Positions 1-25,638 of a stretch of 28,802 nucleotides of DNA are shown here, in pieces. A program made the translations under genes and the position numbers. Each line of letters opens with the position of its first letter. Positions within the stretch are counted from its first letter, which is position 1. The notes below the pieces were generated by a model, which was given only the letters and a program-made list of their open reading frames with translations, did no database searches and was not told the origin of the DNA. Source of the stretch: a virus; IMG/VR virus record IMGVR_UViG_3300035239_000037, positions 1-28,802 of that record; one strand, given 5' to 3'.

Positions 1-1867
1 CAGTAACAGTTATTGAGTAAGTATTATACACTGACTCTGACCTAGGTCTATAATAGTTATTAGTTCTAGGATACATTTGGGCGTTACTAAAAGAATGTGA
101 AGGTCTTCTATGCCCTTTTAATGTTTCTTTATACCACCCATCGATAAGACCACTTATATTTCTTGGATTGATTGCCTTTATTTCTTTTGATGTAGAAGTA
201 GATCCACCATATAATGTATTTGCTCCACCATCACAAGTTCTATCATCAAACAACCCACCATTAACATTGAATGTTATGTCATTTTCATAGGAATTATTCT
301 GTATAAATCCCAACACATCACTATTAGTAAATCTTTCTTTACCTGTGGCCAACAATGCTGCAATACCACAAACCTGCGGTGATGCCATACTAGTTCCACT
401 GATTGGATATCTCCAATTATCACCACCATATTTGCTATCAGGATATCCAGCACCATTTAATCCTGATGCAGAATAAATGTTACTTGGATCTGGCCAAGCA
501 CTGTGAATCATATGTCCGGGTGCCCAAACATCAATCAATGGTCCAAAATTAGAAAAGTCTGACTTGCTAAAATTAGATAGATTTGAAATAGAACCTACAG
601 TAATACAACCTTTAGCATTAGCTGGGGAAAATCCTCTATTATGATAAACTGTATATGTTCCGCTATAAGGACTTGGAAGAAAGAATGTAACAGAATTATT
701 CCAATCAGTATATTCTGGTGCTGTTGGATCTGCGTGTATACTATACTGATCATTATTACCAGCAGCTGCGATACAAACTACCCCATCTTCAATAGCATCT
801 TCCATGTCATATCTTGACGCAGTGCTATCCAAATTATATCTAAATTGGGTTGAACCTACACCAAAATCTTTATGGATTCCATCCATTGTCCATCCACTAG
901 GACCAGGATTGCCGCTGTTATATGTAACACCACGAACTATAATATCCCGTATATCATTCACATTTAAAGATCTTTCAAAAAATGAATATATGTTGGAACT
1001 AGATCCCCAACTATGATTTGTTACTGTAGGATTTTTTTTACCTGTTAGAGGATTTATTGGTTTGTGTCGGTGGAATGCTCTCAAATAATCAAATACTAAT
1101 CTAGATGATAGAGAAGTTCCGAAACCACTGCCGAGGTTTACATGTAAACTATAAATGTTTGCTTCTCTTGCCCATCCATACCATTGTCCTGCTACTGTTC
1201 CAGCAACGTGTGTGCCGTGAAATGTTGTGTTAACAGAATTGGGATGATATGGATATGTTCCTGAAGGAAGTGACATACCATCATCATCTATACTACTAAC
1301 ATAACCATTTAACTCACCAAACCAATCATATTGTACAAACCTACTTTGCCCTGTAGTAGGACTTTTCCATTCATCACAATCATATGAAACTGGTTGATCA
1401 ACAATAACTACATCAACGTGTTTTCCATCTGCAAAAATTTCAACATTATCAGTAACATTTTTGAGGTTATCATGTCCCCACGATCCCTTTCTTCTTTCAG
1501 CAGTGCTCCCAGAAGAATGTAAATGTCCCCACTGTCTTTCATTATTATCATGATTATTTGCAAAAGATGATTTCTCAAAATCCCCAGCAAATCCATATGG
1601 AGTATTATTAACTTCATCATAAAAAGGTATGATTTCTCTTATTGGATCATCATCTTCATTAATTTCAACAGCAGCAACCCTAGAATCATTTCGTATATCT
1701 TCTGCTTGAGTACTATTCATATAGTACTCGGTACTTCTACTAATAGGACGTTTCAAATGGAGTTGATATCCATCCGATTCCATATCAGAATAAAAACTTT
1801 CTAAATCAGATTTATTTTCAAGTGTGACAACATATACCTTACTATCGGAATGATCGTATAGTCCCAT
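1..1867 (-). CDS. Subtilisin-like serine protease (S8 family), C-terminus cut by window edge
   Basis: The frame opens with ATG at 1867, one base after the stop of the preceding structural gene, and stays open for 622 codons to the window edge, so the C-terminus is missing. The subtilase catalytic set is present: Asp157 in VVIVDQP, His217 in HGTHVAG, the oxyanion Asn371 in AAAGNN and Ser493 in GTSMASP. The order and motifs are those of peptidase family S8, but the D-H (60) and H-S (276) spacings exceed those of subtilisin, implying insertions. Residues 10-75 (starting VYVVTLENK, ending near DSRVAAVEINED) resemble an I9-type propeptide, which normally chaperones and inhibits the enzyme until it is cleaved. 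There is no signal peptide or membrane segment. Its place at the end of the fibre genes suggests a virion-associated or virion-maturing protease. The enzyme family is nearly certain; the substrate is unknown. Confidence 0.93.
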   Translation of the reverse strand, partial: MGLYDHSDSKVYVVTLENKSDLESFYSDMESDGYQLHLKRPISRSTEYYMNSTQAEDIRNDSRVAAVEINEDDDPIREIIPFYDEVNNTPYGFAGDFEKSSFANNHDNNERQWGHLHSSGSTAERRKGSWGHDNLKNVTDNVEIFADGKHVDVVIVDQPVSYDCDEWKSPTTGQSRFVQYDWFGELNGYVSSIDDDGMSLPSGTYPYHPNSVNTTFHGTHVAGTVAGQWYGWAREANIYSLHVNLGSGFGTSLSSRLVFDYLRAFHRHKPINPLTGKKNPTVTNHSWGSSSNIYSFFERSLNVNDIRDIIVRGVTYNSGNPGPSGWTMDGIHKDFGVGSTQFRYNLDSTASRYDMEDAIEDGVVCIAAAGNNDQYSIHADPTAPEYTDWNNSVTFFLPSPYSGTYTVYHNRGFSPANAKGCITVGSISNLSNFSKSDFSNFGPLIDVWAPGHMIHSAWPDPSNIYSASGLNGAGYPDSKYGGDNWRYPISGTSMASPQVCGIAALLATGKERFTNSDVLGFIQNNSYENDITFNVNGGLFDDRTCDGGANTLYGGSTSTSKEIKAINPRNISGLIDGWYKETLKGHRRPSHSFSNAQMYPRTNNYYRPRSESVYNTYSITVT

Positions 1868-1868
1868 G

Positions 1869-2513
1869 TTACACCTCTAATTGAACATATGTTAAAGTTA
1901 CTGCAATAGCTGCTGCACTACTACCTTTATTAACTACCTTTGCATATATGTTAGTAGATGGTGTTGCGTCATTATTCCATCCAATAGTACCGGGAGTAAT
2001 AATTTGTGTAGCACCATCAGATGTAATAATTTCTGCAAGTACACCTGAACCTGGAAGTGGATCTGTTGTTTCAGTTCTACTAGAATCAGCAGTTCTACTA
2101 GAACTATCAGTGTAAAGAGTTACCCATGCTGCATGAGATGTTTGTATTTTTAATAAACTAAATGATTTTGCTGCAGTAATTGTTATATCTGCAGCTACGC
2201 CATTAGCGATTGTTGTTGTGGTTGCAGTGGCCGTTCCTCGACCAGCACCACCACCAGCAGTAGCATCTATAGTGTTAGTGGCATCATTGTATGCAAAACT
2301 AATTCCGGAGTGTGCTCCGTTAGTAAATAATTCACTAGCTGCATCTTGAGCATTTTCGTCTGTATACGACGATCCACCGCCTCCTCCTCCACCAGAACCA
2401 CTACCAGTTGATTGCCAACTAGATCCGTTCCATGACCAAGTTAACCCTCCATCTGTGTGGGTGAATGAACCGTCTGTTAGTTGACCAGCGGTATCTGGGA
2501 ATAGAATTGCCAT
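1869..2513 (-). CDS. Short glycine-linker virion or fibre-associated protein
   Basis: A 214-residue protein in three parts. Residues 1-36 hold a DGSFTHTDGGLTWSWNGSSW segment, a Trp/Gly pattern common at the front of marine phage fibre-type proteins. Residues 37-50 are a Gly/Ser linker with seven consecutive Gly. After a YTDENAQDAA segment typical of fibre proteins comes a Thr/Ala-rich beta domain of about 110 residues with paired TADSSR repeats, ending in VTLTYVQLEV. A GGAG Shine-Dalgarno lies 10 bases before the ATG, and an AATAAATA late-promoter-like box lies just upstream. It sits between a fibre-like gene and the subtilase gene (1-base gap). I infer a structural or decoration role; no enzymatic motif was seen. 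It may be a substrate or partner of the neighbouring protease, but this is speculative. Confidence 0.75.
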   Translation of the reverse strand: MAILFPDTAGQLTDGSFTHTDGGLTWSWNGSSWQSTGSGSGGGGGGGSSYTDENAQDAASELFTNGAHSGISFAYNDATNTIDATAGGGAGRGTATATTTTIANGVAADITITAAKSFSLLKIQTSHAAWVTLYTDSSSRTADSSRTETTDPLPGSGVLAEIITSDGATQIITPGTIGWNNDATPSTNIYAKVVNKGSSAAAIAVTLTYVQLEV

Positions 2514-2534: not shown

Positions 2535-2542
2535 TATTTATT
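2535..2542 (-). promoter_or_regulatory. Candidate T4-type late promoter box AATAAATA
   Basis: Minus-strand AATAAATA followed by AC, in the 30-base gap between the 472-residue and 214-residue genes. It differs by one base from the T4 late consensus TATAAATA and shares the 9-mer ATAAATAAC with the stronger box before gp8 at 16464. Distance to the ATG is 21 bases, so any leader would be very short. Motif evidence only, in an AT-rich genome. Confidence 0.4.
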
Positions 2543-2543
2543 T

Positions 2544-3962
2544 TTAATATGATTCTTCTATACTTAATTGACTAGTAGCAACAGTTCCTGTTGTTCTAGA
2601 ACCAGCAATATCCAATTCTAATTTAAGTTTATAAGTAACAGTAACTCCGGTTGATTGTCCGTGAGCGTCTACAAAATTAAACGCCATTGGACTATTTGGA
2701 GAACCATCTGTCCACACTTTACATAATTGTGTAGCAGTTCCGCTAACATCCCTTTCCAGGATTACATATCCTTCAGCAACTGCAGTTCCGGTAAGATGTC
2801 CAAGAACAATACTAATTTTAATTTTTGTTAAAGATGTTACATCTAAACTTGCTGAAAAAGTACCATTAGTATCGGCAAAATAATTACCTGTAGCAGCAGT
2901 AACAGCACCAGTATTAGTTCTGACATCCGTTGCCGGTATTAGTGCTGCTAATGGAGGTGATGCATCTACCCAAGAAGATGGATTAACACCGTTATCATAG
3001 TAGACTTTTAATCTGCCTGAATCACTCTCCCACCATAAATCTCCACCACTCGCACCGCCAGGAGCGTCATCAGAAACTGTTACACTAGCACCACTACCGG
3101 AACCCCAAACTAATTGACCATTACCATCCGTCTGTAATGATTGTCCTGATGTTCCATCCGCAGTAACAAATTTTAGAGCGCCATTAATCTTTCCGTCTTT
3201 ATCGACATAAAAATTATTAGTACCGGAAGTTTTTAAATATAAACCACCACCAGTAGAAGAATGGTTGATTATTAATTCACCAGTCTTATCAAAATTAATA
3301 CCGTAATCATTTGCAAGACCATTAGAAAAAGATCCTACAGAAACATCATTTGTAAAAAGAACTTTACCAGCGGTAATACCTAAATTATCTGATGATATTT
3401 TAGAAGTAATAGTATTTACTTTTATCGAACCAACAGTAACATCATGCGATGTTACACCACCACGACCAGTTACTGAATCTAACGTATCAGTTTCTGAATA
3501 TGTAGATATGTAGTTTTGAGCACTATGATCACCCCATCCATATGCAGTATCCCATTCTGTATTATTATAATTAGTAGGAGTTAGAGTTTTTGTAGTCTGA
3601 CCAAGAGTAAGAGTAATAGAATCTTGGGGACCAAGATTGGTGATGTTTAATCCGTTAACAAAGGTCTGATTTACTCTTGCATCAATAGCGGTATTTACTC
3701 TACTATCTGTATAATATAAATTTGTTCCTTCTAAAATAGAAGATGTGGAAAACTCATTGAATGCGAGATCAATTGATAAAGATCCATTGGCATCATCATA
3801 AGTAACCGCAGTTCCAACACCACCTTGCACCAAGGCAGCAATTCTGTCATCAACTTTTTCATCGAAGGTGACATCAATATCATTAACATCAGAAGCAAGA
3901 TTATTAATTTCTTGCCTTTGTTGGTCAATAGTATATGTAATTGGTACGTTTCTTAATGGCAT
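2544..3962 (-). CDS. Tail-fibre-like structural protein (472 aa)
   Basis: The N-terminus reads M-P-LRNVP-ITYTIDQQRQEINNLA and closely matches that of the next fibre gene (4001-6178), so both probably attach to the same virion site through this leader. The middle is beta-rich fibre sequence with a YTDSRVNTAI segment, an EWDTAYGWGDHS segment and a GDLWWESDSGRLKVYYDNG motif near residues 305-330, all of a kind common in marine phage fibre proteins. The last 130 residues form a separate Thr/Val-rich beta domain ending SQLSIEESY, the likely distal or receptor-facing part. There is no catalytic motif. A GAGG lies 14 bases before the ATG, too far to be a strong ribosome site. Receptor binding is inferred from position and architecture. 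Confidence 0.82.
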   Translation of the reverse strand: MPLRNVPITYTIDQQRQEINNLASDVNDIDVTFDEKVDDRIAALVQGGVGTAVTYDDANGSLSIDLAFNEFSTSSILEGTNLYYTDSRVNTAIDARVNQTFVNGLNITNLGPQDSITLTLGQTTKTLTPTNYNNTEWDTAYGWGDHSAQNYISTYSETDTLDSVTGRGGVTSHDVTVGSIKVNTITSKISSDNLGITAGKVLFTNDVSVGSFSNGLANDYGINFDKTGELIINHSSTGGGLYLKTSGTNNFYVDKDGKINGALKFVTADGTSGQSLQTDGNGQLVWGSGSGASVTVSDDAPGGASGGDLWWESDSGRLKVYYDNGVNPSSWVDASPPLAALIPATDVRTNTGAVTAATGNYFADTNGTFSASLDVTSLTKIKISIVLGHLTGTAVAEGYVILERDVSGTATQLCKVWTDGSPNSPMAFNFVDAHGQSTGVTVTYKLKLELDIAGSRTTGTVATSQLSIEESY

Positions 3963-4000: not shown

Positions 4001-6178
4001 TCAAGCAGCACGATACGTGATACTGAATGCATAGTATGCACCATCTGCTGTAGGTAAGGCTTCGCTTGTAGCATTATCTCTAACCGCTAGGAACGATAGG
4101 TTAGTAGTTCCTATATCAGTCATGCAAATAACATAGTTGTGGTTTCCTGCTATCGGAGCATTATAAAGTCTTACTGCACCTACGGCATATCCAGCGCCAT
4201 CCCCTGTACTGTGTGAAGCATATGGTAAATTGTTAATAATCAATGCACTACCGCCATTACTACTATCAATTTGAATCTGTCCCATTACAGTTATAAGATT
4301 GCCAATTCTTGTCCATTGTAATTTATTACCAGAAACATTCAAAGTAATGCTATTGTCGCAAGTTGCGGTAAATTCACCATCGAGATAAGTCTTGAGTACT
4401 GCATTTGTAGCACCTGTTGGTAAAGTACCTGATGCTATACCAAGTTTGAGTCCACCAGTTGGACCAAAAGCAATTTCATCAAAAACACACATTGGGGACT
4501 GGAAAGAGATCGTAGCAGCAGAGTCTGTTGAACCAATGACCAGTGCTGATCCAGGAGTGACTGGATCAATGATTTGTGTTGTTAACTTTTTCGTATCATC
4601 ATTAAGAGAAAGATCGCCAAAAAACACAGAGTTGCCGTCATCATCAATAGTGACAATTTCTGAACTGTTATCAGCTTTACGAAGTTGAAGTCCGTTAGTT
4701 CCACCATAGAAGTATGATCTTGTTGCATCAACTTGTAATACGTTATGTCCAGCGCCAGTTATAAAAGTATTTGTGTTAGGGAGGTCGAGGTTATCCCCAA
4801 ATGAGACCGAACCAGTCGAAGTGATGCTATCCGCAGTGATGCTGCCGTCCGAACCTTTTAAAACTATGCTAGTACCACTGACATTTTTAAGGATTAACCT
4901 AGTATCAGAAGTTCCAGATCTATACAAACCACCAATATTTGTACTACCATTTTTAACTTCAAAGGCGTAAGTATTGTTTGCAGTTGTGCTTGTTACTGTA
5001 CCAGATGCAGCAACGGTGCCATCAATATCAACGTTGCCATCAATATCAACGTTGCCATCAATATCAACACTGTCAGTGATATCTAAAGTTGGGTTTACAG
5101 CACCTTGATAATAGAATCTAGTTCCGCCAAAAGGACTAAAGATTACTTGATCTTCGTATTGAGTGTTTGCAGTATCAAACCATCTGACATGGAAACCGCT
5201 TTCACTCTCTAGCCTTAATTCTGAAGATGCGTTATCGTAGTAGAGATCAGCATCTTCGTTAGTACCAAAGTAAATAGGTCTGCCATCTTTCATATGTAGA
5301 GAGGTTGGCTCTACATCTTCAAACAGTGCGTTACCTGTATTGAATATCGAGAAAGTAGGAGTACTTGCATTGCTTAAAATAGAATCGCCTTTGACCATTC
5401 CAGCAAATGTGGCAGCACCAGTAGCATCGATTTCTGATGTGATTCCAGCAGTTCCAGTCTGTCTACCTCTCCAGAGAGAACTTCCACTGCTATTAGAAAT
5501 ATAAATCTGTCCACCATTAGTGATAGTTATTCCATCATTAGTTGATGTCTCGCTAATACCACCGCCAGGAAAATAAGTAATGGGATATGTACTGAAACCG
5601 TATGGTACATACATTGATCCACCAAAGATCGCTTCAGTAACCATCTGACCAGGGGTTATCTGATCCGCAGTTTTTAAATATAATGCACCATCTGAAGAAT
5701 GTAATTCATTACCAACTTCAAGGTCTCCTAAAACTGATACTCCAGCATTAGTGGTTACAAGTCTTTCTTGTGATCCATTAGGTCCTGAAGTTGTTACAAA
5801 TGACAGAGAAACGTCGCCAGCAACCGCATCACTATCAATTAATTTAGATCCCAGTTGAGATCTTGTTAGAACAGATCCAAAGGTGGAGCTCATAATTACA
5901 TCATCATCTGCCGCAATATAAACGTTTTTTCCACTATTTTGAGCACGAAGTTCTAAATCCTCAACTGCGGATACAACAAGGTCGGATTGCTCATTGAAAA
6001 TCGTTCCAGCAGTATCAATACTAACAGTGCCACTAAATGTTACATCGGCAGTAAATGTTTTATCCCCACCAAATGTCTGTACGCCATCAACAGCGGTATC
6101 CAAATCTACTGCTATTTCATTAACCTCTTGACGCTGCTCTTCTAGCGTAAAACTCTTTGGTACGTTTCTTAATGTCAT
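4001..6178 (-). CDS. Tail-fibre-like structural protein (725 aa) with in-frame VDIDGN repeats
   Basis: It starts M-T-LRNVPKSFTLEEQRQEVNEIA, the same leader as the 472-residue fibre-like protein, followed by short beta-repeat fibre segments (TFTADVTFSGTV, DLVVSAVEDLEL). Around residues 368-390 a tandem six-residue repeat VDIDGN/VDIDGN/VDIDGT is encoded by an 18-base DNA repeat. An EDADLYYDNASSELRLES segment lies before it. The C-terminal ~120 residues include the LQWTRIGNLITVMGQI motif, typical of the terminal knob of many phage tail fibres, and end in a Tyr-rich YYAFSITYRAA strand. Its ATG overlaps the stop of the 64-residue gene by four bases (ATGA), implying translational coupling. It is probably a host-recognition fibre; the receptor is unknown. 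Confidence 0.85.
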   Translation of the reverse strand: MTLRNVPKSFTLEEQRQEVNEIAVDLDTAVDGVQTFGGDKTFTADVTFSGTVSIDTAGTIFNEQSDLVVSAVEDLELRAQNSGKNVYIAADDDVIMSSTFGSVLTRSQLGSKLIDSDAVAGDVSLSFVTTSGPNGSQERLVTTNAGVSVLGDLEVGNELHSSDGALYLKTADQITPGQMVTEAIFGGSMYVPYGFSTYPITYFPGGGISETSTNDGITITNGGQIYISNSSGSSLWRGRQTGTAGITSEIDATGAATFAGMVKGDSILSNASTPTFSIFNTGNALFEDVEPTSLHMKDGRPIYFGTNEDADLYYDNASSELRLESESGFHVRWFDTANTQYEDQVIFSPFGGTRFYYQGAVNPTLDITDSVDIDGNVDIDGNVDIDGTVAASGTVTSTTANNTYAFEVKNGSTNIGGLYRSGTSDTRLILKNVSGTSIVLKGSDGSITADSITSTGSVSFGDNLDLPNTNTFITGAGHNVLQVDATRSYFYGGTNGLQLRKADNSSEIVTIDDDGNSVFFGDLSLNDDTKKLTTQIIDPVTPGSALVIGSTDSAATISFQSPMCVFDEIAFGPTGGLKLGIASGTLPTGATNAVLKTYLDGEFTATCDNSITLNVSGNKLQWTRIGNLITVMGQIQIDSSNGGSALIINNLPYASHSTGDGAGYAVGAVRLYNAPIAGNHNYVICMTDIGTTNLSFLAVRDNATSEALPTADGAYYAFSITYRAA
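5015..5068 (-). repeat. Three-copy 18-bp in-frame tandem repeat
   Basis: Plus-strand unit GTTGCCATCAATATCAAC at 5033-5050 and 5051-5068 is identical, and 5015-5032 differs at one base (GG for GT at the start). It encodes VDIDGN-type hexapeptides inside the 725-residue fibre gene. A more diverged fourth copy may follow at 5069-5086 (DITDSV). The unit length is a multiple of three, so copy-number change would lengthen or shorten the fibre without a frameshift. Confidence 0.95.
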
Positions 6179-16497: not shown

Positions 16498-19400
16498 TTA
16501 CGTAGTTGTTTCAATACCAATAGTTCTCAAAATAGAACCAGCGGGATGGTCAACTTCGGTTGTTCCATTAAGTGCTCTAGTTATACCAGATAATCTATCA
16601 TTACTAACTTTAGAAGTATAAGAAATAATTTCTTTTCCTATAAGTAATTTTCCTGATGGAGGGAAATTAGTAGTATCTGGGATATCAATTTGTAAAGTAT
16701 TTCCAATTAATAAATCAGCATCTAGATATGAACCAAGTTCTTGGATAGATGGAATTGCGAAGTTCAATACTCTACCAGTAGTTGAAATATTGCTATCAGT
16801 AATAGCATAATTTTGTATCCAGGTATCATTACCATCATCAATAGATTTAAATTCACTGAAAGTTGTATCTAACTGTTCTAATGTAATTCCAGAAACATTT
16901 GCATAACCAACATCAATATATAGAGACTCAATAAAATCTCTTACTGATTTTCCAGGTAGATAATGACTATACAAGAATTCTGTATCACCCATCGGACTAT
17001 TATTAAGATCCAAAACACCAGTTTGATGATGTTTTGTAACTGGGTGTAGATAGGTACTATAAGAAAGATCTTCAACTATTTCGTAATCAACTTCAACAGT
17101 AGTTTCATTCCAAGACAAGTTATTGTTTTGGGTAGTTGTCTCTACAATAGATGTATTTTCAAATTGAGTGGTGTTGAAAGTTACTACTAATGGATCTGGA
17201 GTAACAAAACATGTCAAAATCTCTGTTGCATCAACAGGAGATAGAGAAACTACTGCTGTTAGAGATTCCATCAAATTTCTATCCCATAGATAGACTTCAC
17301 TGAAGATGCTTTGCATCTTAACAACACCATAGATACCATCTTGAGCTTTTAATTTAAAATCAAAAGATGATTCTGGGTGGTTGTTTTCTCTAACAACACT
17401 ATATCCTCTAGAAATAAGTACTCTGGGAGCAATAGCATACCCAGATCCACCATCAACTAAAACAATATCAATAACTTGTCCACCATAAACAAGAACTTCC
17501 GCTCTTGCTCCACCACCAGCAGGAGTAGATGGAACAAAGTTTAAAACAGGTGGTGAGTTGTATTGATATGCAGTCGGGTTAATTAAAATATTATTATCAA
17601 AATACTGCTGTAGGTCTCTTTTGTTCCAATCAAGACTTACTACGACACCATCTGCTACATTTGCAGTAACACTTAATCCTTCTCCTTTTTTATCTTTATT
17701 ATAAGATCCGACACTAATTTTACTAAAATAATTATTAGAAACTTGCTTGCCAGGACGATACTCTTTAGTTTTTGCGAATAGTGGCACACTAAAAACTTCA
17801 CGTTTTTCAGATTCACCATCAATTTGTATAAAATCTCCCACTCTTAAATTAGGATGCTCTTTGATAACAATTCCTTTATATTCGTAACTATCAATCAAAT
17901 CAGTAGTTGTTATAAAAGGAGAATAGTTACTTTCGACTCTATTCAAAAGTCTTTCATTTTGTTCTGATAGTAAATATGAAACACTAAATGAATCGAATGA
18001 TACATTAATAGTATCAGTAGTTCCAGCAACAGTACGTCTAGAGAAATATACGGGTTCATCCGGAATCATATCTACGTTTTGTGATCTGATAAACATTTCC
18101 CAATCATTGCCATTAGAAAGACCAAAATCAATAAGTTCTCCCCAAACTCTTTGAGTTCCGCCAACAATTTGATAAACGGTAGTTTTGTATGATGTATTTT
18201 GCTTAAACCACGAATCAACTTGATCCTTGGTTCCTGCTCCAGAGAAAGCAATAGTTGTTCTGTTAAAGTAAGTATCGTTTTCAAAATCAAATAGTGTTAC
18301 TGTAGAATTATAATCTTTTCCATAGAAATATAAAATATCAACAGTAGCAGTGGTGTACGAACCATCTGGTTGTTTAGCATATCCCAAAGGATTCTCGAAT
18401 GTAACAGAAGAACCATTAATTCTATAAGAAAGGGAATCTCTCTGTAGCACACCGTCTACAAAAACATATGCATATAATGGGGTATCAAAGTTTTTAACTC
18501 TTCCATAAGTATCTAAAATTGGATATGGATATGATGATCCATTAAAAGGTATTAACTTATTATTAATCCCCAGTCTTTCATATGACCCTACGCTATATCC
18601 AAAGAAGTATTCTTCATTTTGTAATTGATCAGGAACACCTTCATAAAGGTCTTTATAATTTTTTGGTGCTTTAGAGAATACAATTTGATCAGTTTTTGCT
18701 GAACTATTGAATCTTCTAATTTCGTAAGAACCTTGTTGTAGAACAGCATTTAGATAGATCAAGAAATTTTCATTCTTGTCAGATTTTACAACTGAATTAT
18801 CTTCATAGAACAAATCAAAGATTCTTGTTCTGCCATCAAAGTTATTAGTAATATCTTTTAATTTTTTCAGATACTTATTATTATCTACGTCTTCTCTAAA
18901 TTCAAAACCTCTAATATAATATTCTTGTGCAGGAACATCAACTATATTACCATCTACAAGTTGTTGTCTCTTACCAATAGGTGGTTCATAGAATGTAATC
19001 TGATTACCATTAATTTTATATGATCTGCCAGGATTTTGTGCTACACCATCAATAGTAATCATGATAGATTGATTATTATTAGGAGTAAATGCAGTTCCTG
19101 TATTTTTATCTTTTAAGGTAAATGTTCTGTTTCCGATTTTAAGACCAGTAGAGTCATCATATTTTCCATCAAATTCTGGAGACAATACAATTTCCCTAAC
19201 TCTAGTTAAAGTCTCGTCAAAAGAATCTACAGATGCAGATCCTGCACCTCTAACAATGGTAGAATCTTCAACTTTAATTATTCCTGTAGTAATAGTTCTT
19301 CTTGATGTATATGAAGAAACTGCTGTAGTTGGTAGAATTAAATAATTAGTTAATTTTTGCGAGGTTTGCTGCTCGCCCTTCATTTTGATGTCAGCCGAGG

Positions 19401-22400
19401 ATTCAATATAAACCTCTCCAAACATTTTAAATCCAGCTGGATGGGTATTATCCTTTACTACATTTCTCCAATTATTGATAGGAGTTTTACTTCTAACAAC
19501 ATATGAATAATCTTGATAAAAATCAGAATCAGTAATTCTTTGATTTACCGAACTTAATTTTCCTCTATCAGAATTAAATTTGCCAATAGTCCTTGTTCTG
19601 GTATTAATTACCGGAGTAAAGGAAGTTTTAGTAACAGAAATTACATTTGCTGTTTTTCCTTTTGATCTTCCATTAATAGGATACCCCTCTCGGAATACTC
19701 CACTGATATTAACTAAACGTAAAATATTAGATCCTTTATTCCATCCATTGGATGCAACTTTACCAGAAGCAAATACAACTCCATTTATTTTTTGCTCAAT
19801 ACTCTCCCCATCACCAAATGCATTTAATTCAAAATTAGATAAAGTCAGTACTTGCGGGGTTTCGTAGTAAGATTGAATAGAATCATCTTTGAAATAGAAA
19901 GTACCATTATTAATAAATCGGATGCTTTGAGGAATTCCAATATCATTAGACTCGAAGAATAGTTTATTATCAGTCTCAATAATATCAATTTTTGGTGTGG
20001 AATAATAATCCTTACCAGGATTTAAAATTTCTACTGCAGTAACAATACCATTATCAATTTTGACTGCTAACTCTAATCCAGTTCCGTCGCCGGAAACATA
20101 TGCTTTGGGTTTAGAATAATTTTGTCCCGCAAAATCAATATCTATTTTAGTAATAGAATTGGATGATGCATCACGAACCGCTTTTACATCAGCCTTATAT
20201 CCTGCCGCAGGAACAACACCTTCTACAGAAGGCAGAGATTTATAGTTTTCTCCAAGATTATCTAATACAATAGAAGCAATTTTGCCTACAGATCTACCTT
20301 TATACTGAATATTTCCAGATCCATCATATTGAGGTACATCATCCAAACTATAAACAAACTTGGTATCAGTTGTAAAGACAACTCTTTTACGACCAGCAAG
20401 AGGATCTTCCTTAACTCTTAAGAAAGAACTATTGGTATTTGTGGAAGAATTAGTAAGGAAGTAGTAATATGTGGTGTAGTTAACATTTTTTCTTTTAATA
20501 TCTCCAATATTTGCGCCATATCCTAATCTGATCCTAACAAATGATCCAGCATTTCCTGGTTCTGCCAACCCAACTTCTTTTTCTTCGGTGAATACATTAT
20601 AATTTGAACTAGTAGAAATATCTAAATACGAACCCAACATCGAAGGATGACTAGTGTCAAATTTGTAAAAGTAATATTTTTGAATATCTACAATAGGATT
20701 TGTTAAGAAATCAGTATTGTCTAAAGAAAATAATAGTCTATCATCTAAAGGATCAACATTAGATACTGATACAATTTTTGTAGGAACACTCTGATCTGGG
20801 AATGATGAAACTACTGTTATTTTATTTGGGTTAGTAGCATCAAATCCATAATTAACTACTAATCTATGTGTAGTTTCGTTATAAGAAACAACATATGGAT
20901 CATTAACAGTATTACCAATAATTTGGGTTCCTGGAGTAAATCTATATTTTGGTTGATATGAAGTTACTATAGAATTAGGAAGATGATTTACAGCAGTAGT
21001 CCCACCAACACCCCTTTCTAATGATACTTGTCTAGTGTTGGAATCTACAGACGTTACTCTAACAATCTCACTACCTACTGATAGCAAGTCATTTTCCGCA
21101 ATAGAGAATATTTTATCTAAAACAATTTCGGTTCTCTGTAATCCTAATCCAACAGCATTGACAGATACTAGAGGAATAGCAGTACTTGGTGCTGGGTATA
21201 CAGTAAGTTCTCCGACCATTTCTGGGTGAGATATACAAACGTAATAATATGTGCCTGGTGCTTGAGGAGCAAACGTAATAGTTTCTGCCTCGTTAGAAGA
21301 TCCATTATTAGTTACTCCTGTTGCAGCAATATATGTTGCTATCTCTAATGCAACACCATCTTCTTGTCTAATCGTAGTTGAATAATCAGAAACAATCCAA
21401 ATAACATGACCAGGTATTGGGTTTACAGTAAATGTAGACCCAACTCGCATATCATATCCAGGATTTGTTACACCGCCAACATCAAATCTAAATTGTGGTA
21501 AAGGTGCTCCAGGACCAGAAGTAGTTCCGCTTGCAGTAACTACTACACTATCAATAGTAACAGAAGTATCGATTAACTCTCCGGGAACAGTTGTGCGATA
21601 TTCAAACCAATCGTTATCCGTATCTTCTCCAAGGTAGATATGTTCAACACCATTGCTATCAATAAAAATATCATTTACAGCACCTACGAATGCTGTTACT
21701 GCAGCTTTATCCGCACTATCTACTTGGAAGAACCCAATATCATATAATGCAATGTTATCTGCATTCAACTGAACCATTGTCGGATCAATATCAGTATCAA
21801 AAATTGTAGGATCTGCTTTTAAAATACTAGATGGATTAATAGTTAATATATCATCACTAGTGTATCCAGAACCACCATCAGTAACTACAATAGATTCAAT
21901 TTGACCACTATTATCAAAATTAGTAGAATTTACGGTTACTGTTGCTCTCGCATTATCACTATCTCCAGCAGATCCTACAGTTTCTCTAACATTTGTGAAA
22001 TTACTGAAAATGAGCTCCACATTGTTATAAACTCCACCAGCATAGTCTCTACCAAGACCAACCATGGTAGAATCCCCAACCCCAGTATCATTTACTTTTC
22101 CTCGGAATGATTGTGGAGTAAGATCAACTTCTTGATAATCTTTCTTTGCAACATAGTATAATGTTTCGGTGACAGATTCATCAGGGTCAATTTGAATATC
22201 GACATCATCTCCTTCGGCAAAATCATGTACTCCTACAGTTTCTGCAATAGCAATAGATTCATTTACTGAAGTAATGTCTACTCCTTGACTCAAGTTAGTA
22301 ATAGCAACAATTCCTGAACCGGCAGTGTTTGCTAAATCACCACTCTTTAAAATAGTTTTTCCTTCGTCATAATTCAGATAATCAGAAAAATTACCACTGA

Positions 22401-25400
22401 TTACTTTTACTCTTACAGAATTTTGGTCAATTGTAGATGATAATACTGAAGAACTAGCAATTATGTTAGATGGGTCATCAAGAAGAACTAAATCTAATGT
22501 GGCATCTTTTGTATATGTACTACTCCTATTCAATAGTATATTCAAGACTGTCGAACTAGATTCGATTGGTGATCCAGATTCAAATGTATTATTAATTGCT
22601 CGCAATACAAATGTAGTCTCTTCAATAGTATCTCGAAGCAACTCTCCTGTAGCACCGGTTGATGGTTGCGTGATAGTGTCGCCAGAAAATGAGTAGAATG
22701 GTTGTGCTGACATCAATACTGATGCTTTAGTCTCTCTTGATTCTAATGATGTAACTGGTTTTCCAAAAGTAGCAGAAACTCTTCCTGTAGCACCAGTGCC
22801 GCCAGTACCAGAATTATTTACATAAACTCTTGAACCAACCGAAAAATTTGGTTGAGAATCTTCTACAGTAACTCCGGAAACAGAACCTCTAGAAATAGAA
22901 TCAATGATTGCAATTTCTGACTTACCATTCTGTTCGGTTCCTGTAATGAATAATCTCTTTGCTTCTTTTGGAATAGCATTTTGAGTAACATCAGACTGAT
23001 AGTTTGATTTTACTGGTAATGAGTAATAATTTTCACCAATGATGTATGGAAAGACCGGAACGCCAGTAGCATCAATTGTTAGAAAATATGCATATACTCC
23101 TCTGGGAAATTCTGGTGTTACACAAAATCTTCCGTTGTTAACATCCAATCGTGTTTTTCCAGTATCAACTGTTGGTGACCACTCATAGTCATCCACAAAT
23201 GTTCCCATTTCGTAAGGGGCATCTATCGGACCACCTACTCTGGATGATTTAATAGAATATCCACTTTCCATTTTGGCGATAGCGGAAGATGGATTTAATG
23301 GATTTTCATAACCATAAGGTCCATAGATGGGATTTCCATCATATGCATAACCTAAAATAGGGGAGTGAGTCTTTGCTGCAGTAGATTCTACTAATGTAGT
23401 AGTAGCAACGTTATCATTTAATCGTAATCTTAATCTTTTTGGATTAGAAATTACACCATAGTAATTTTTATCTCTATTATATCCAGGTACAACTAAACCG
23501 CCATTGTCATCAACAACAGTGTTAAAATGTCTGTTTTTTACCCATTCGCGAATATTTGCTTTAGCAGATGCAGAATTTGAAAATGCATCTGGAATTACTG
23601 TAACAACTACATTTTCTTGAGTGTAGAATTTACCACCAGAAAGTTTTTCCAGACTAATAATCTGACCCTGGGGAGAAACAACCGCATGATATTCAGCAAA
23701 TCTACCTTTGCCAGAAAAATCACTAATAAGAATTGCTGGAGATGCTGAATAATATTCTCCAGGATTTACAATACGAATACTAGTAATTTCTCCTGATGTT
23801 ACGATAGGTTCTAAAACAGCATCTCTACCACTAACAATCTCAACCGTAGGAGCAGATGTGTAATTAGTACTATCGGTACTGATAATGTCAGAAACAGTAT
23901 CACCAGTTAAAATAGCATCTGCTTTACCAGATACTTTATTAATTAAGATAAATGGAGGTTTTTGATATCCAGATCCCCTACGAGTAACCACAAATTCTGT
24001 GATAGGACCATATTCAATTAAATTTTCGTTTTTAAATCCAAATGCAATTGAACCATCAACAAAGAGACCGATATCTCTTCGAGGAGTTTTGTAAATTTCT
24101 GATGTAGTAGTTGTCTCTTTTGGAATAATTTTAAGAAGTTGTGGATCTGAAAGAGTTTCAGTAACCCCTGATGGTAAAATTTTTGTAGATGGGTATGAAG
24201 AAGTAGCAAAATAGTATAAATCATTATCTTCATAAATTGAACCAACTCCTGCAAGTACCTTCTCTAAAGCCTGTCCTACACTGGGATTTAGAGGAACTGA
24301 TGGACTATCTCCCGTAACATTCACCTTCCAGCGATAGTTCTTATCAGAATCACTGAATAAAAGTGGATTTGCAGATTCAAACCCTGGAGTTGAAACTTGA
24401 ATACGATCATTAACTGATGCATATGGATGAGCATCGTCAATAAGTAAAGTATTGAGAGTTCCGTATGCTAATAAAGAAACAATGCCATTAGGGGTAACAG
24501 ATTTTAATGTGGAGTAATTAGTAACTTCATCTCCTACACTATGAGTTCTATTAATTGTTCCTCGCTGTTTGATTACAAATTGGCGTGCATTCTTACCTTC
24601 ATACGAAATTACCTCGTTATTAATAACAATCACACCATTAGTATCATCCCATCCAAATGTAGAATCTACAGTAATAGTATCACCAGTAGTTTGAGCAGGA
24701 TCAACAATTCTATTAAGAACCGTTCTTTGAGGAATTACAAATTCTGAATTGATTGATTGTGGATTAACAACTAGATTAAATAACTGATCTCCATTATTAG
24801 AATCTACTGTATAGAAATTTTCGATTACAGCAGATGCATAATTCACATTAGAATTATTATCAGACTGTTGTACTACAGTTTGTCCTATCAACCATTCCGG
24901 ATTTCCTGAAAGAATCCTACATTGAATTACATAGGAAGAGTCCCAATCAGAAACTGAAGCTTTTAATGTTTGATCCTTTGGGTTATATGTGGTTGGGGTG
25001 TCATTATCCGATATAATAGTATTAAAAAGAAATCTAATAGATTTATCAGTTCCTTTTACTTTATAAAAATTAGAAATATTCTTGATAAGGATTCGCTTAT
25101 CTACATCCTTTTTGATGTATTCTTCTGGAAAAGATTCTAAATATTGAATTTCAAATGACTTTACAATAGCATATAAAAACAGGTGACTTAAATTATCAAC
25201 ATTACTGCCATTATCATGAGTAGTCGAATCTGAAGAAACAAATTTTGATTTGGAATACAAATCACCGAGTTGAGTAGTACCACTCACTCCTCGGGAAACT
25301 TCTAACAACTCTGTTGATGTTCTCTCTTTATAAAAACAAATTTCATTACCAATTTTAACATAACCATTTTTTAATGGGAACGAAGAGGCATCCGCTACAA

Positions 25401-25638
25401 TAATAGTAGTATCAGTAGAATTTAACGATGATGAAAGAGTTGTTCTCTCTTGTAACAACTTTTTCTCATAAAAATCAATATCATAGTATGATGTTAAATT
25501 TGTAATAATATCTAAAGGATTGCCTGTAGACTCTAAATTTTCATAGTAAGATTCAAGAACTTTCTGAAAGTTCTCGTATTCTGATACAATAAACCCTGGA
25601 AGTTGATCTTCAATGAGTGAAGAGATCTGTGTATTCAT
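16498..25638 (-). CDS. Giant gp7-position baseplate protein (3046 aa; VrlC-like in some cyanophage annotations)
   Basis: It lies between gp6 and gp8 in the T4 gp7 slot but is about three times T4 gp7 (1032). Residues 13-50 (LPGFIVSEYENFQKVLESYYENL) and 165-213 (ILIKNISNFYKVKGTDKSIR, then FLFNTI) resemble helical parts of the T4 gp7 C-terminal third; NNWRNVVKDNTHPAGF near 2055-2069 resembles the T4 RWK...HPVGF segment. Between and after these are beta modules: IGxEIIxY...GTT..H repeats near 66-130, 303-373, 1500-1562 and 2975-3046; GxGY repeats near 552, 624, 1252, 1795, 1835, 1870 and 2727; a YHYH-like domain about 750-885; a cupredoxin-like domain about 1355-1485; and three I-DGV-Q...SY-I repeats at about 2190-2400. 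ATG follows the gp6 stop by four bases. gp7 homology is from memory, so no symbol is given. Confidence 0.85.
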   Translation of the reverse strand: MNTQISSLIEDQLPGFIVSEYENFQKVLESYYENLESTGNPLDIITNLTSYYDIDFYEKKLLQERTTLSSSLNSTDTTIIVADASSFPLKNGYVKIGNEICFYKERTSTELLEVSRGVSGTTQLGDLYSKSKFVSSDSTTHDNGSNVDNLSHLFLYAIVKSFEIQYLESFPEEYIKKDVDKRILIKNISNFYKVKGTDKSIRFLFNTIISDNDTPTTYNPKDQTLKASVSDWDSSYVIQCRILSGNPEWLIGQTVVQQSDNNSNVNYASAVIENFYTVDSNNGDQLFNLVVNPQSINSEFVIPQRTVLNRIVDPAQTTGDTITVDSTFGWDDTNGVIVINNEVISYEGKNARQFVIKQRGTINRTHSVGDEVTNYSTLKSVTPNGIVSLLAYGTLNTLLIDDAHPYASVNDRIQVSTPGFESANPLLFSDSDKNYRWKVNVTGDSPSVPLNPSVGQALEKVLAGVGSIYEDNDLYYFATSSYPSTKILPSGVTETLSDPQLLKIIPKETTTTSEIYKTPRRDIGLFVDGSIAFGFKNENLIEYGPITEFVVTRRGSGYQKPPFILINKVSGKADAILTGDTVSDIISTDSTNYTSAPTVEIVSGRDAVLEPIVTSGEITSIRIVNPGEYYSASPAILISDFSGKGRFAEYHAVVSPQGQIISLEKLSGGKFYTQENVVVTVIPDAFSNSASAKANIREWVKNRHFNTVVDDNGGLVVPGYNRDKNYYGVISNPKRLRLRLNDNVATTTLVESTAAKTHSPILGYAYDGNPIYGPYGYENPLNPSSAIAKMESGYSIKSSRVGGPIDAPYEMGTFVDDYEWSPTVDTGKTRLDVNNGRFCVTPEFPRGVYAYFLTIDATGVPVFPYIIGENYYSLPVKSNYQSDVTQNAIPKEAKRLFITGTEQNGKSEIAIIDSISRGSVSGVTVEDSQPNFSVGSRVYVNNSGTGGTGATGRVSATFGKPVTSLESRETKASVLMSAQPFYSFSGDTITQPSTGATGELLRDTIEETTFVLRAINNTFESGSPIESSSTVLNILLNRSSTYTKDATLDLVLLDDPSNIIASSSVLSSTIDQNSVRVKVISGNFSDYLNYDEGKTILKSGDLANTAGSGIVAITNLSQGVDITSVNESIAIAETVGVHDFAEGDDVDIQIDPDESVTETLYYVAKKDYQEVDLTPQSFRGKVNDTGVGDSTMVGLGRDYAGGVYNNVELIFSNFTNVRETVGSAGDSDNARATVTVNSTNFDNSGQIESIVVTDGGSGYTSDDILTINPSSILKADPTIFDTDIDPTMVQLNADNIALYDIGFFQVDSADKAAVTAFVGAVNDIFIDSNGVEHIYLGEDTDNDWFEYRTTVPGELIDTSVTIDSVVVTASGTTSGPGAPLPQFRFDVGGVTNPGYDMRVGSTFTVNPIPGHVIWIVSDYSTTIRQEDGVALEIATYIAATGVTNNGSSNEAETITFAPQAPGTYYYVCISHPEMVGELTVYPAPSTAIPLVSVNAVGLGLQRTEIVLDKIFSIAENDLLSVGSEIVRVTSVDSNTRQVSLERGVGGTTAVNHLPNSIVTSYQPKYRFTPGTQIIGNTVNDPYVVSYNETTHRLVVNYGFDATNPNKITVVSSFPDQSVPTKIVSVSNVDPLDDRLLFSLDNTDFLTNPIVDIQKYYFYKFDTSHPSMLGSYLDISTSSNYNVFTEEKEVGLAEPGNAGSFVRIRLGYGANIGDIKRKNVNYTTYYYFLTNSSTNTNSSFLRVKEDPLAGRKRVVFTTDTKFVYSLDDVPQYDGSGNIQYKGRSVGKIASIVLDNLGENYKSLPSVEGVVPAAGYKADVKAVRDASSNSITKIDIDFAGQNYSKPKAYVSGDGTGLELAVKIDNGIVTAVEILNPGKDYYSTPKIDIIETDNKLFFESNDIGIPQSIRFINNGTFYFKDDSIQSYYETPQVLTLSNFELNAFGDGESIEQKINGVVFASGKVASNGWNKGSNILRLVNISGVFREGYPINGRSKGKTANVISVTKTSFTPVINTRTRTIGKFNSDRGKLSSVNQRITDSDFYQDYSYVVRSKTPINNWRNVVKDNTHPAGFKMFGEVYIESSADIKMKGEQQTSQKLTNYLILPTTAVSSYTSRRTITTGIIKVEDSTIVRGAGSASVDSFDETLTRVREIVLSPEFDGKYDDSTGLKIGNRTFTLKDKNTGTAFTPNNNQSIMITIDGVAQNPGRSYKINGNQITFYEPPIGKRQQLVDGNIVDVPAQEYYIRGFEFREDVDNNKYLKKLKDITNNFDGRTRIFDLFYEDNSVVKSDKNENFLIYLNAVLQQGSYEIRRFNSSAKTDQIVFSKAPKNYKDLYEGVPDQLQNEEYFFGYSVGSYERLGINNKLIPFNGSSYPYPILDTYGRVKNFDTPLYAYVFVDGVLQRDSLSYRINGSSVTFENPLGYAKQPDGSYTTATVDILYFYGKDYNSTVTLFDFENDTYFNRTTIAFSGAGTKDQVDSWFKQNTSYKTTVYQIVGGTQRVWGELIDFGLSNGNDWEMFIRSQNVDMIPDEPVYFSRRTVAGTTDTINVSFDSFSVSYLLSEQNERLLNRVESNYSPFITTTDLIDSYEYKGIVIKEHPNLRVGDFIQIDGESEKREVFSVPLFAKTKEYRPGKQVSNNYFSKISVGSYNKDKKGEGLSVTANVADGVVVSLDWNKRDLQQYFDNNILINPTAYQYNSPPVLNFVPSTPAGGGARAEVLVYGGQVIDIVLVDGGSGYAIAPRVLISRGYSVVRENNHPESSFDFKLKAQDGIYGVVKMQSIFSEVYLWDRNLMESLTAVVSLSPVDATEILTCFVTPDPLVVTFNTTQFENTSIVETTTQNNNLSWNETTVEVDYEIVEDLSYSTYLHPVTKHHQTGVLDLNNSPMGDTEFLYSHYLPGKSVRDFIESLYIDVGYANVSGITLEQLDTTFSEFKSIDDGNDTWIQNYAITDSNISTTGRVLNFAIPSIQELGSYLDADLLIGNTLQIDIPDTTNFPPSGKLLIGKEIISYTSKVSNDRLSGITRALNGTTEVDHPAGSILRTIGIETTT
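21190..21575 (-). other. Cupredoxin-like segment inside the giant gp7-position protein
   Basis: About residues 1355-1485. The pattern is beta strands with MRVGSTFTVNPIPGHVIWIV, then APGTYYYVCISHPEMVGELTV. C1468-x2-H1471-x2-M1474 followed by VGELTV is the type 1 copper ligand loop in the amicyanin-like spacing, and H1411 in GHVIW can supply the upstream His. So all four candidate ligands are present. A related pattern (GHPL...YYYC-x2-H-x2-M) occurs, from memory, in other marine phage structural proteins. Actual copper binding is not shown. Confidence 0.65.
22990..23390 (-). other. YHYH-like domain inside the giant gp7-position protein
   Basis: About residues 750-885. HSPILGYAYDGNPIYGPYGY (763 is the Gly of GYAYD), then LDVNNGRFCVTPEFPRGVYAYF, then FPYIIGENYYS. 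This order matches the YHYH protein family (GYA-DG-PIYGP ... LD-NG ... YP-G-YHYH ... FPY-IG). The family's YHYH signature is replaced by YAYF (849-852), so both signature His residues... the YHYH His and following His position are Ala and Phe, and any metal site there is probably lost. Domain call from motif order only. Confidence 0.65.

Follow-up and report, generated by a model that had tools for sequence, protein, structure and literature searches.

A subtilisin/proteinase K-type protease is encoded at one edge of a T4-like marine cyanophage contig, directly behind the gene for a fibre-like protein. Our preferred interpretation, which we hold at a little better than even, is that it is made late, rides on the virion attached to a fibre tip, and digests host-surface protein at adsorption. 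The window, meaning the whole stretch of DNA analysed, is the complete IMG/VR virus record IMGVR_UViG_3300035239_000037 (28,802 bases). Its gene content is that of a cyanophage tail region, with all genes on the minus strand: a PAAR protein, gp25, gp6 (82% identical to gp6 of Synechococcus phage S-CAM3), a 3,046-aa protein that is gp7-like in size and place, a wedge protein where gp8 would lie, another large protein of 2,714 aa and three fibre-like proteins. The 3,046-aa protein (16498–25638, −) contains a YHYH domain (E 1.5e-25) at residues 747–858 (window 23065–23400). By reading, the 472- and 725-aa fibre-like proteins have an N-terminal M-x-LRNVP...QRQE motif in common, which is perhaps a shared attachment end. 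The features discussed below are collected in Table 1.

Table 1. Position of the subtilase, its partner and associated features in the window
Feature	Position	Strand	Remarks
Subtilase, peptidase S8, proteinase K-like, 622 of ~724 aa	2..1867	−	3′ end lost at contig edge; Pfam, model
Nucleophile Ser493 (GTSMASP)	389..391	−	kept in 65/65 relatives
Oxyanion Asn371	755..757	−	kept in 65/65 relatives
Catalytic His217	1217..1219	−	kept in 65/65 relatives
Catalytic Asp157	1397..1399	−	kept in 64/65 relatives
Predicted I9-like propeptide and flexible junction, residues 8–85	1613..1846	−	predicted topology; low pLDDT at 74–85
Partner gene: modular fibre-like protein, 214 aa	1869..2513	−	stop 1 bp before subtilase ATG
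Partner C-terminal beta domain, residues 88–214	1872..2252	−	conserved; nearly confined to subtilase-bearing loci
AGAGG ribosome-binding site of subtilase	1874..1878	−	within the partner's last codons
Late-promoter-like site AATAAATA	2535..2542	−	29 nt upstream of partner
Fibre-like protein, 472 aa, upstream neighbour in cluster	2544..3962	−	phrog_9729 tail fiber match
Fibre-like protein, 725 aa, upstream neighbour	4001..6178	−	matches phrogs of unknown function

A proteinase K-like enzyme with an intact catalytic set

The subtilase reading frame starts at an ATG (1867–1865) and is still open at the window edge. A sequence-only reading of this DNA had placed the gene at the end of a fibre operon; that placement did not survive, the contig edge cutting the gene and the relatives L009 and L015 having more genes downstream. 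Pfam Peptidase_S8 (PF00082) matches the window protein at 1e-24 (87.8 bits; cut-off 21.8), and the S8 profile is matched by 42 of 42 relatives. The Asp, His, Ser triad and the oxyanion Asn follow one another in the order required of S8 peptidases. The residues named in the earlier reading are all where it put them: D157 in VDVVIVD, H217 in FHGTHVAGT, N371 in AAAGNND and S493 in SGTSMASP. Of 65 relatives, each <80% identical, 64 retain all four residues, and such retention among divergent proteins indicates that activity is under selection. The window subtilase is very probably an active enzyme, judging from these sequences. The dN/dS ratio, mostly 0.4–0.5 in pairs of close members (NG86), indicates moderate overall constraint only; the ratio of 0.7 for the window protein and L009 derives from very few changes between near-identical sequences. 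The exception among the 65, a subtilase-like protein of S-CAM1 (L006 14080–16335) annotated as a tail fibre protein, carries Glu at the catalytic Asp position and is possibly inactive.

The structure was approached through the complete homologue L009 (724 aa, 98% identical to the window subtilase), for which an AlphaFold2 model was obtained from a 40-row alignment (mean pLDDT 79.8). The model superimposes on proteinase K-like proteases with a Z score of 35.3 (2.3–2.5 Å over ~275 residues); one of the matches, 2b6n (Z 35, 275 residues, 2.3 Å), has the subtilisin fold. Fold, tetrad and propeptide layout are those of the secreted proteinase K-like proteases (2b6n, 1s2n/1sh7, aqualysin, keratinase 5wsl), from which the phage enzyme differs in having no Sec signal, an apparently late gene and large insertions, at 24–31% identity. 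The Pfam tail-sheath ‘subtilisin-like domain’ is the name of a fold and bears no relation to the cyanophage subtilase. PADLOC, for its part, returned a generic subtilase model as the sole match to the subtilase, and a defence role was set aside on that result.

Residues 10–69 of the model form a beta-alpha-beta-beta-alpha-beta arrangement, the topology of I9 propeptides, and residue 91 aligns with residue 1 of mature proteinase K-like enzymes. Maturation cleavage would be expected within residues 74–85, which are modelled with low confidence. The Pfam I9 model gave no match. The suggested I9-like propeptide thus finds support in predicted topology and not in the family profile. Direct reading of the N-terminus, MGLYDHSDSKVYVVTLENK, reveals no hydrophobic core, in agreement with the proposed absence of a signal peptide.

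It had been hoped that the missing C-terminus would hold a virion-attachment domain. The full-length homologue L009 ends instead in a cupredoxin-like domain, a part that the window does not include, and no recognisable fibre- or virion-attachment domain is present in its C-terminus. Attachment of the subtilase through its upstream partner, and not through a C-terminal domain of its own, is more likely. A profile built in this analysis locates the cupredoxin-like domain in 48 of 65 subtilase representatives; the Pfam cupredoxin model scores above its cut-off in L017, L073 and L110, and below it in L009 (0.11). The expected His-Cys-His-Met ligand set of L009 is H664, C710, H713 and M716. The His corresponding to H664 is kept in 33 of 33 sequences; Cys, His and Met belonged to the selection motif and so are not independent evidence. 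The subtilases of S-RSM4, S-WAM2 and P-SSM2 end without this domain, whereas the closest complete relative of the window protein has it. A cupredoxin-like stretch with YYVCISHPEM also occurs in the 3,046-aa protein (residues 1403–1480, window 21199–21432), and P-SSM2 and S-SCSM1 have fibre proteins with the same domain, that of S-SCSM1 being labelled a virion protein. Copper-binding-type domains seem, from their sequences, to be common in cyanophage tails; no description of cupredoxin in cyanophages was found in the open-licence literature.

Other additions vary among family members. The subtilase L105 bears a LamG lectin domain, and weak matches to esterase-like regions are seen on L033 and L101. 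Such variable domains would fit an enzyme facing the host surface better than one of internal assembly. The subtilase of S-TIM54 (L008 10015–16452) is part of a 2,145-aa chain that also comprises esterase, Ig/Hoc-like and tail-fibre-type regions.

A conserved, probably late pair with a fibre-like gene

The junction between partner and subtilase reads TAA C ATG, which verifies the single base reported between the two genes. Since the ribosome-binding site of the subtilase lies within codons of the partner, the two are probably translationally coupled. A fibre-like gene is found directly 5′ of the subtilase in essentially all loci with sequence on that side. Of 92 loci, 74 have a spacing of +1, and the others mostly lie between −4 and +4; a few values of −17 to −32 probably reflect upstream in-frame start codons picked mechanically. 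Where the subtilase lies inside a giant protein, in S-TIM54, the upstream gene differs.

The N-terminal part of the partner varies, whereas its C-terminal domain of ~115–125 aa is conserved and predicted to be a beta sandwich. Structural comparison gave no match that stood out; the nearest neighbours are beta domains of capsid, cement, turret and baseplate proteins, with Z below 8, indicative of a common fold only. The specificity of the pairing was examined in 50,697 phage records. The C-terminal domain of the window type (type A) occurs in 42 of these, with a subtilase directly adjoining in 35. In S-SCSM1 (two records) and AG-345-F15 the type A domain is located elsewhere and the subtilase is paired with a second, unrelated C-terminal domain (type B); four records (S-BM3, Sf-CH1b, S-CRES1 and S-CRES2) have type A and no subtilase match. 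Type B occurs in 18 records and has a subtilase close beside it in every one.

Proteases are not the only proteins encoded next to the tip domain. In S-BM3, Sf-CH1b and a second cassette of S-H9-1, a related tip domain is followed after 1 bp by a different protein family of 608–767 aa without a match to any enzyme family; in ACG-2014i the order is the same and the gap slightly longer. Members of this alternative family lie at L160 6320–8146, L161 6344–8641, L003 11572–13875 and L034 3172–5502, and both cassettes are present in S-H9-1 and ACG-2014i. Because another family can take the place of the subtilase, the unit would be better read as a fibre tip combined with a tip protein that can be exchanged, the subtilase being one such protein. 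In T-even phages gp38, a glycine-rich adhesin and not an enzyme, sits on the tip of the gp37 fibre. There too a second gene lies directly downstream of a fibre-tip gene, with a product that would sit on the tip; the likeness is one of gene order, not homology, and docking of the subtilase is our proposal.

The published late promoter of S-PM2 is NATAAATA (PMC2984593). A slightly looser motif, N[A/T/C]TAAATA, occurs in the 60 nt preceding the partner at 60 of 70 loci, which are not all independent, against 0.026 expected per 60 nt; it is most often located 29–32 nt before the partner start. Late synthesis of the protease, already suggested from its setting, is supported for both genes of the pair by these promoter-like sites.

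Virion location and probable role

In S-SCSM1 a subtilase homologue of 1,411 aa with an intact tetrad (ORF228) and its partner (ORF227) are both labelled virion protein. The same label is carried by ORF213 and ORF214, and is absent from the head completion and baseplate hub proteins. The S-SCSM1 report (PMC9602691) describes 45 proteins detected when CsCl-purified virions were analysed by mass spectrometry, ORF213 and ORF214 being named among them; we infer that the label denotes such detection. Its authors warn that some non-structural proteins may be carry-over. The subtilase is moreover fused in one chain to virion-type domains in S-SCSM1 and S-TIM54. The suggestion of a virion-packaged protease accordingly gains support through relatives, from these fusions and from the S-SCSM1 label. 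Virion location is fairly well supported, the direct label belonging to the S-SCSM1 relative and not to the window protein.

Three jobs had been offered for the enzyme: cleavage of fibre proteins, digestion of host surface proteins and processing of the giant baseplate proteins. Digestion of the host surface fits best, because of the surface-acting accessory domains (lectin, esterase, Ig) and the pairing with a fibre, and is most likely the role as far as sequence can tell; fibre or baseplate cleavage fits less well. An assembly protease, which would trim the partner fibre or the large wedge and fibre proteins during tail assembly and may stay attached, is unlikely, at somewhat over one chance in five. 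S74 chaperone domains set a precedent for maturation of fibres by a serine protease, and a late, cytoplasmic enzyme (a signal peptide is lacking) whose gene lies amid those for fibre and baseplate would be well placed for such work, its propeptide permitting timed activation. Against this, gp6 like that of the window is found in 474 phage records (1e-60) and the subtilase in ~54 (union of lists), about one in nine, so the wedge does not generally require such processing. The lectin, esterase and Ig additions would also be of little use to an enzyme that processes proteins internally.

Subtilases are widespread as intracellular proteases. The family could on that ground act on host proteins within the cell or in the lysis phase and be a mere contaminant of virion preparations, a possibility to which the carry-over warning in the S-SCSM1 report (PMC9602691) lends some weight. 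Fixed pairing with a fibre-like gene, the late promoter and the single-chain fusions to virion-type domains make it improbable. Loss of enzyme function, with the fold kept for binding in a structural or adhesive protein, might describe S-CAM1, with its Asp to Glu change and tail fibre annotation; for the family it is very improbable given the D/H/N/S set retained in all but one of the divergent members and intact in the window.

In the fibre-tip reading that we prefer, the protease would be made late, along with the fibre-like product of the gene immediately upstream, and the I9-like propeptide would probably hold it inactive in the cytoplasm until removed around residues 73–90. Docking on the C-terminal beta domain of the partner (the tip) would carry it into the virion. 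Activation would follow outside the cell, possibly by seawater calcium, and the enzyme would then act on the host surface at adsorption, substrate and timing being part of the proposal.

Distribution and significance

The family is cyanophage T4-GC_292 / phrog_9158, whose profile matches residues 8–621 of the window subtilase at 2.1e-163. Its members in P-SSM2 (PSSM2_297), S-SSM7, S-RSM4, S-WAM2 and S-H9-1 are related to it along the full length and share its tetrad and upstream partner arrangement. Searching with the window subtilase (tblastn) gave 48 phage records, and a few more were reached through divergent members; all carriers are marine cyanophages or uncultured marine viruses. In IMG/VR at least 550 stretches are related to it. 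A scan of bacterial and archaeal genomes returned long matches in two marine MAG contigs (L116 and L117, binned as Euryarchaeota and Rickettsiales), the rest being generic subtilases. The two contigs are probably mis-binned phage sequence, and acquisition of the subtilase from a host was rejected.

The family itself is already known from databases, several records annotating it as ‘subtilisin-like serine protease’ or as T4-GC_292 with PF00082, and an S8 peptidase is merely listed for P-HM1/P-HM2 (PMC3037559). No paper describing a virion subtilase or peptidase S8 in cyanophages was found in the open-licence literature; within what was searched, neither the pairing nor its distribution nor the mechanistic reading appears to have been described. 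Tentatively, and at rather less than an even chance, we propose that marine cyanophages have a class of protease-tipped tail fibres, encoded by a late cassette of two genes, one for a fibre with its own docking tip and one for a proteinase K-like enzyme, often with a copper-binding-type domain, as an exchangeable tip protein. We know of no earlier virion-borne host-surface protease of T4-like phages, and protease-tipped fibres would be the first. The enzymes known from phage tails are mainly sugar or peptidoglycan cutters. Depolymerase tailspikes of the LKA1 gp49 type (PMC5701251) likewise remove host-surface material and cut polysaccharide, whereas the cyanophage subtilase would cut protein. 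The conserved pair is directly testable in the isolated phages S-WAM2, S-RSM4, P-SSM2 and S-SCSM1. If the proposal is true, Synechococcus and Prochlorococcus bear a protein layer that some marine cyanophages must find or pass, and host range in the ocean could be approached concretely through a fibre-tip protease.
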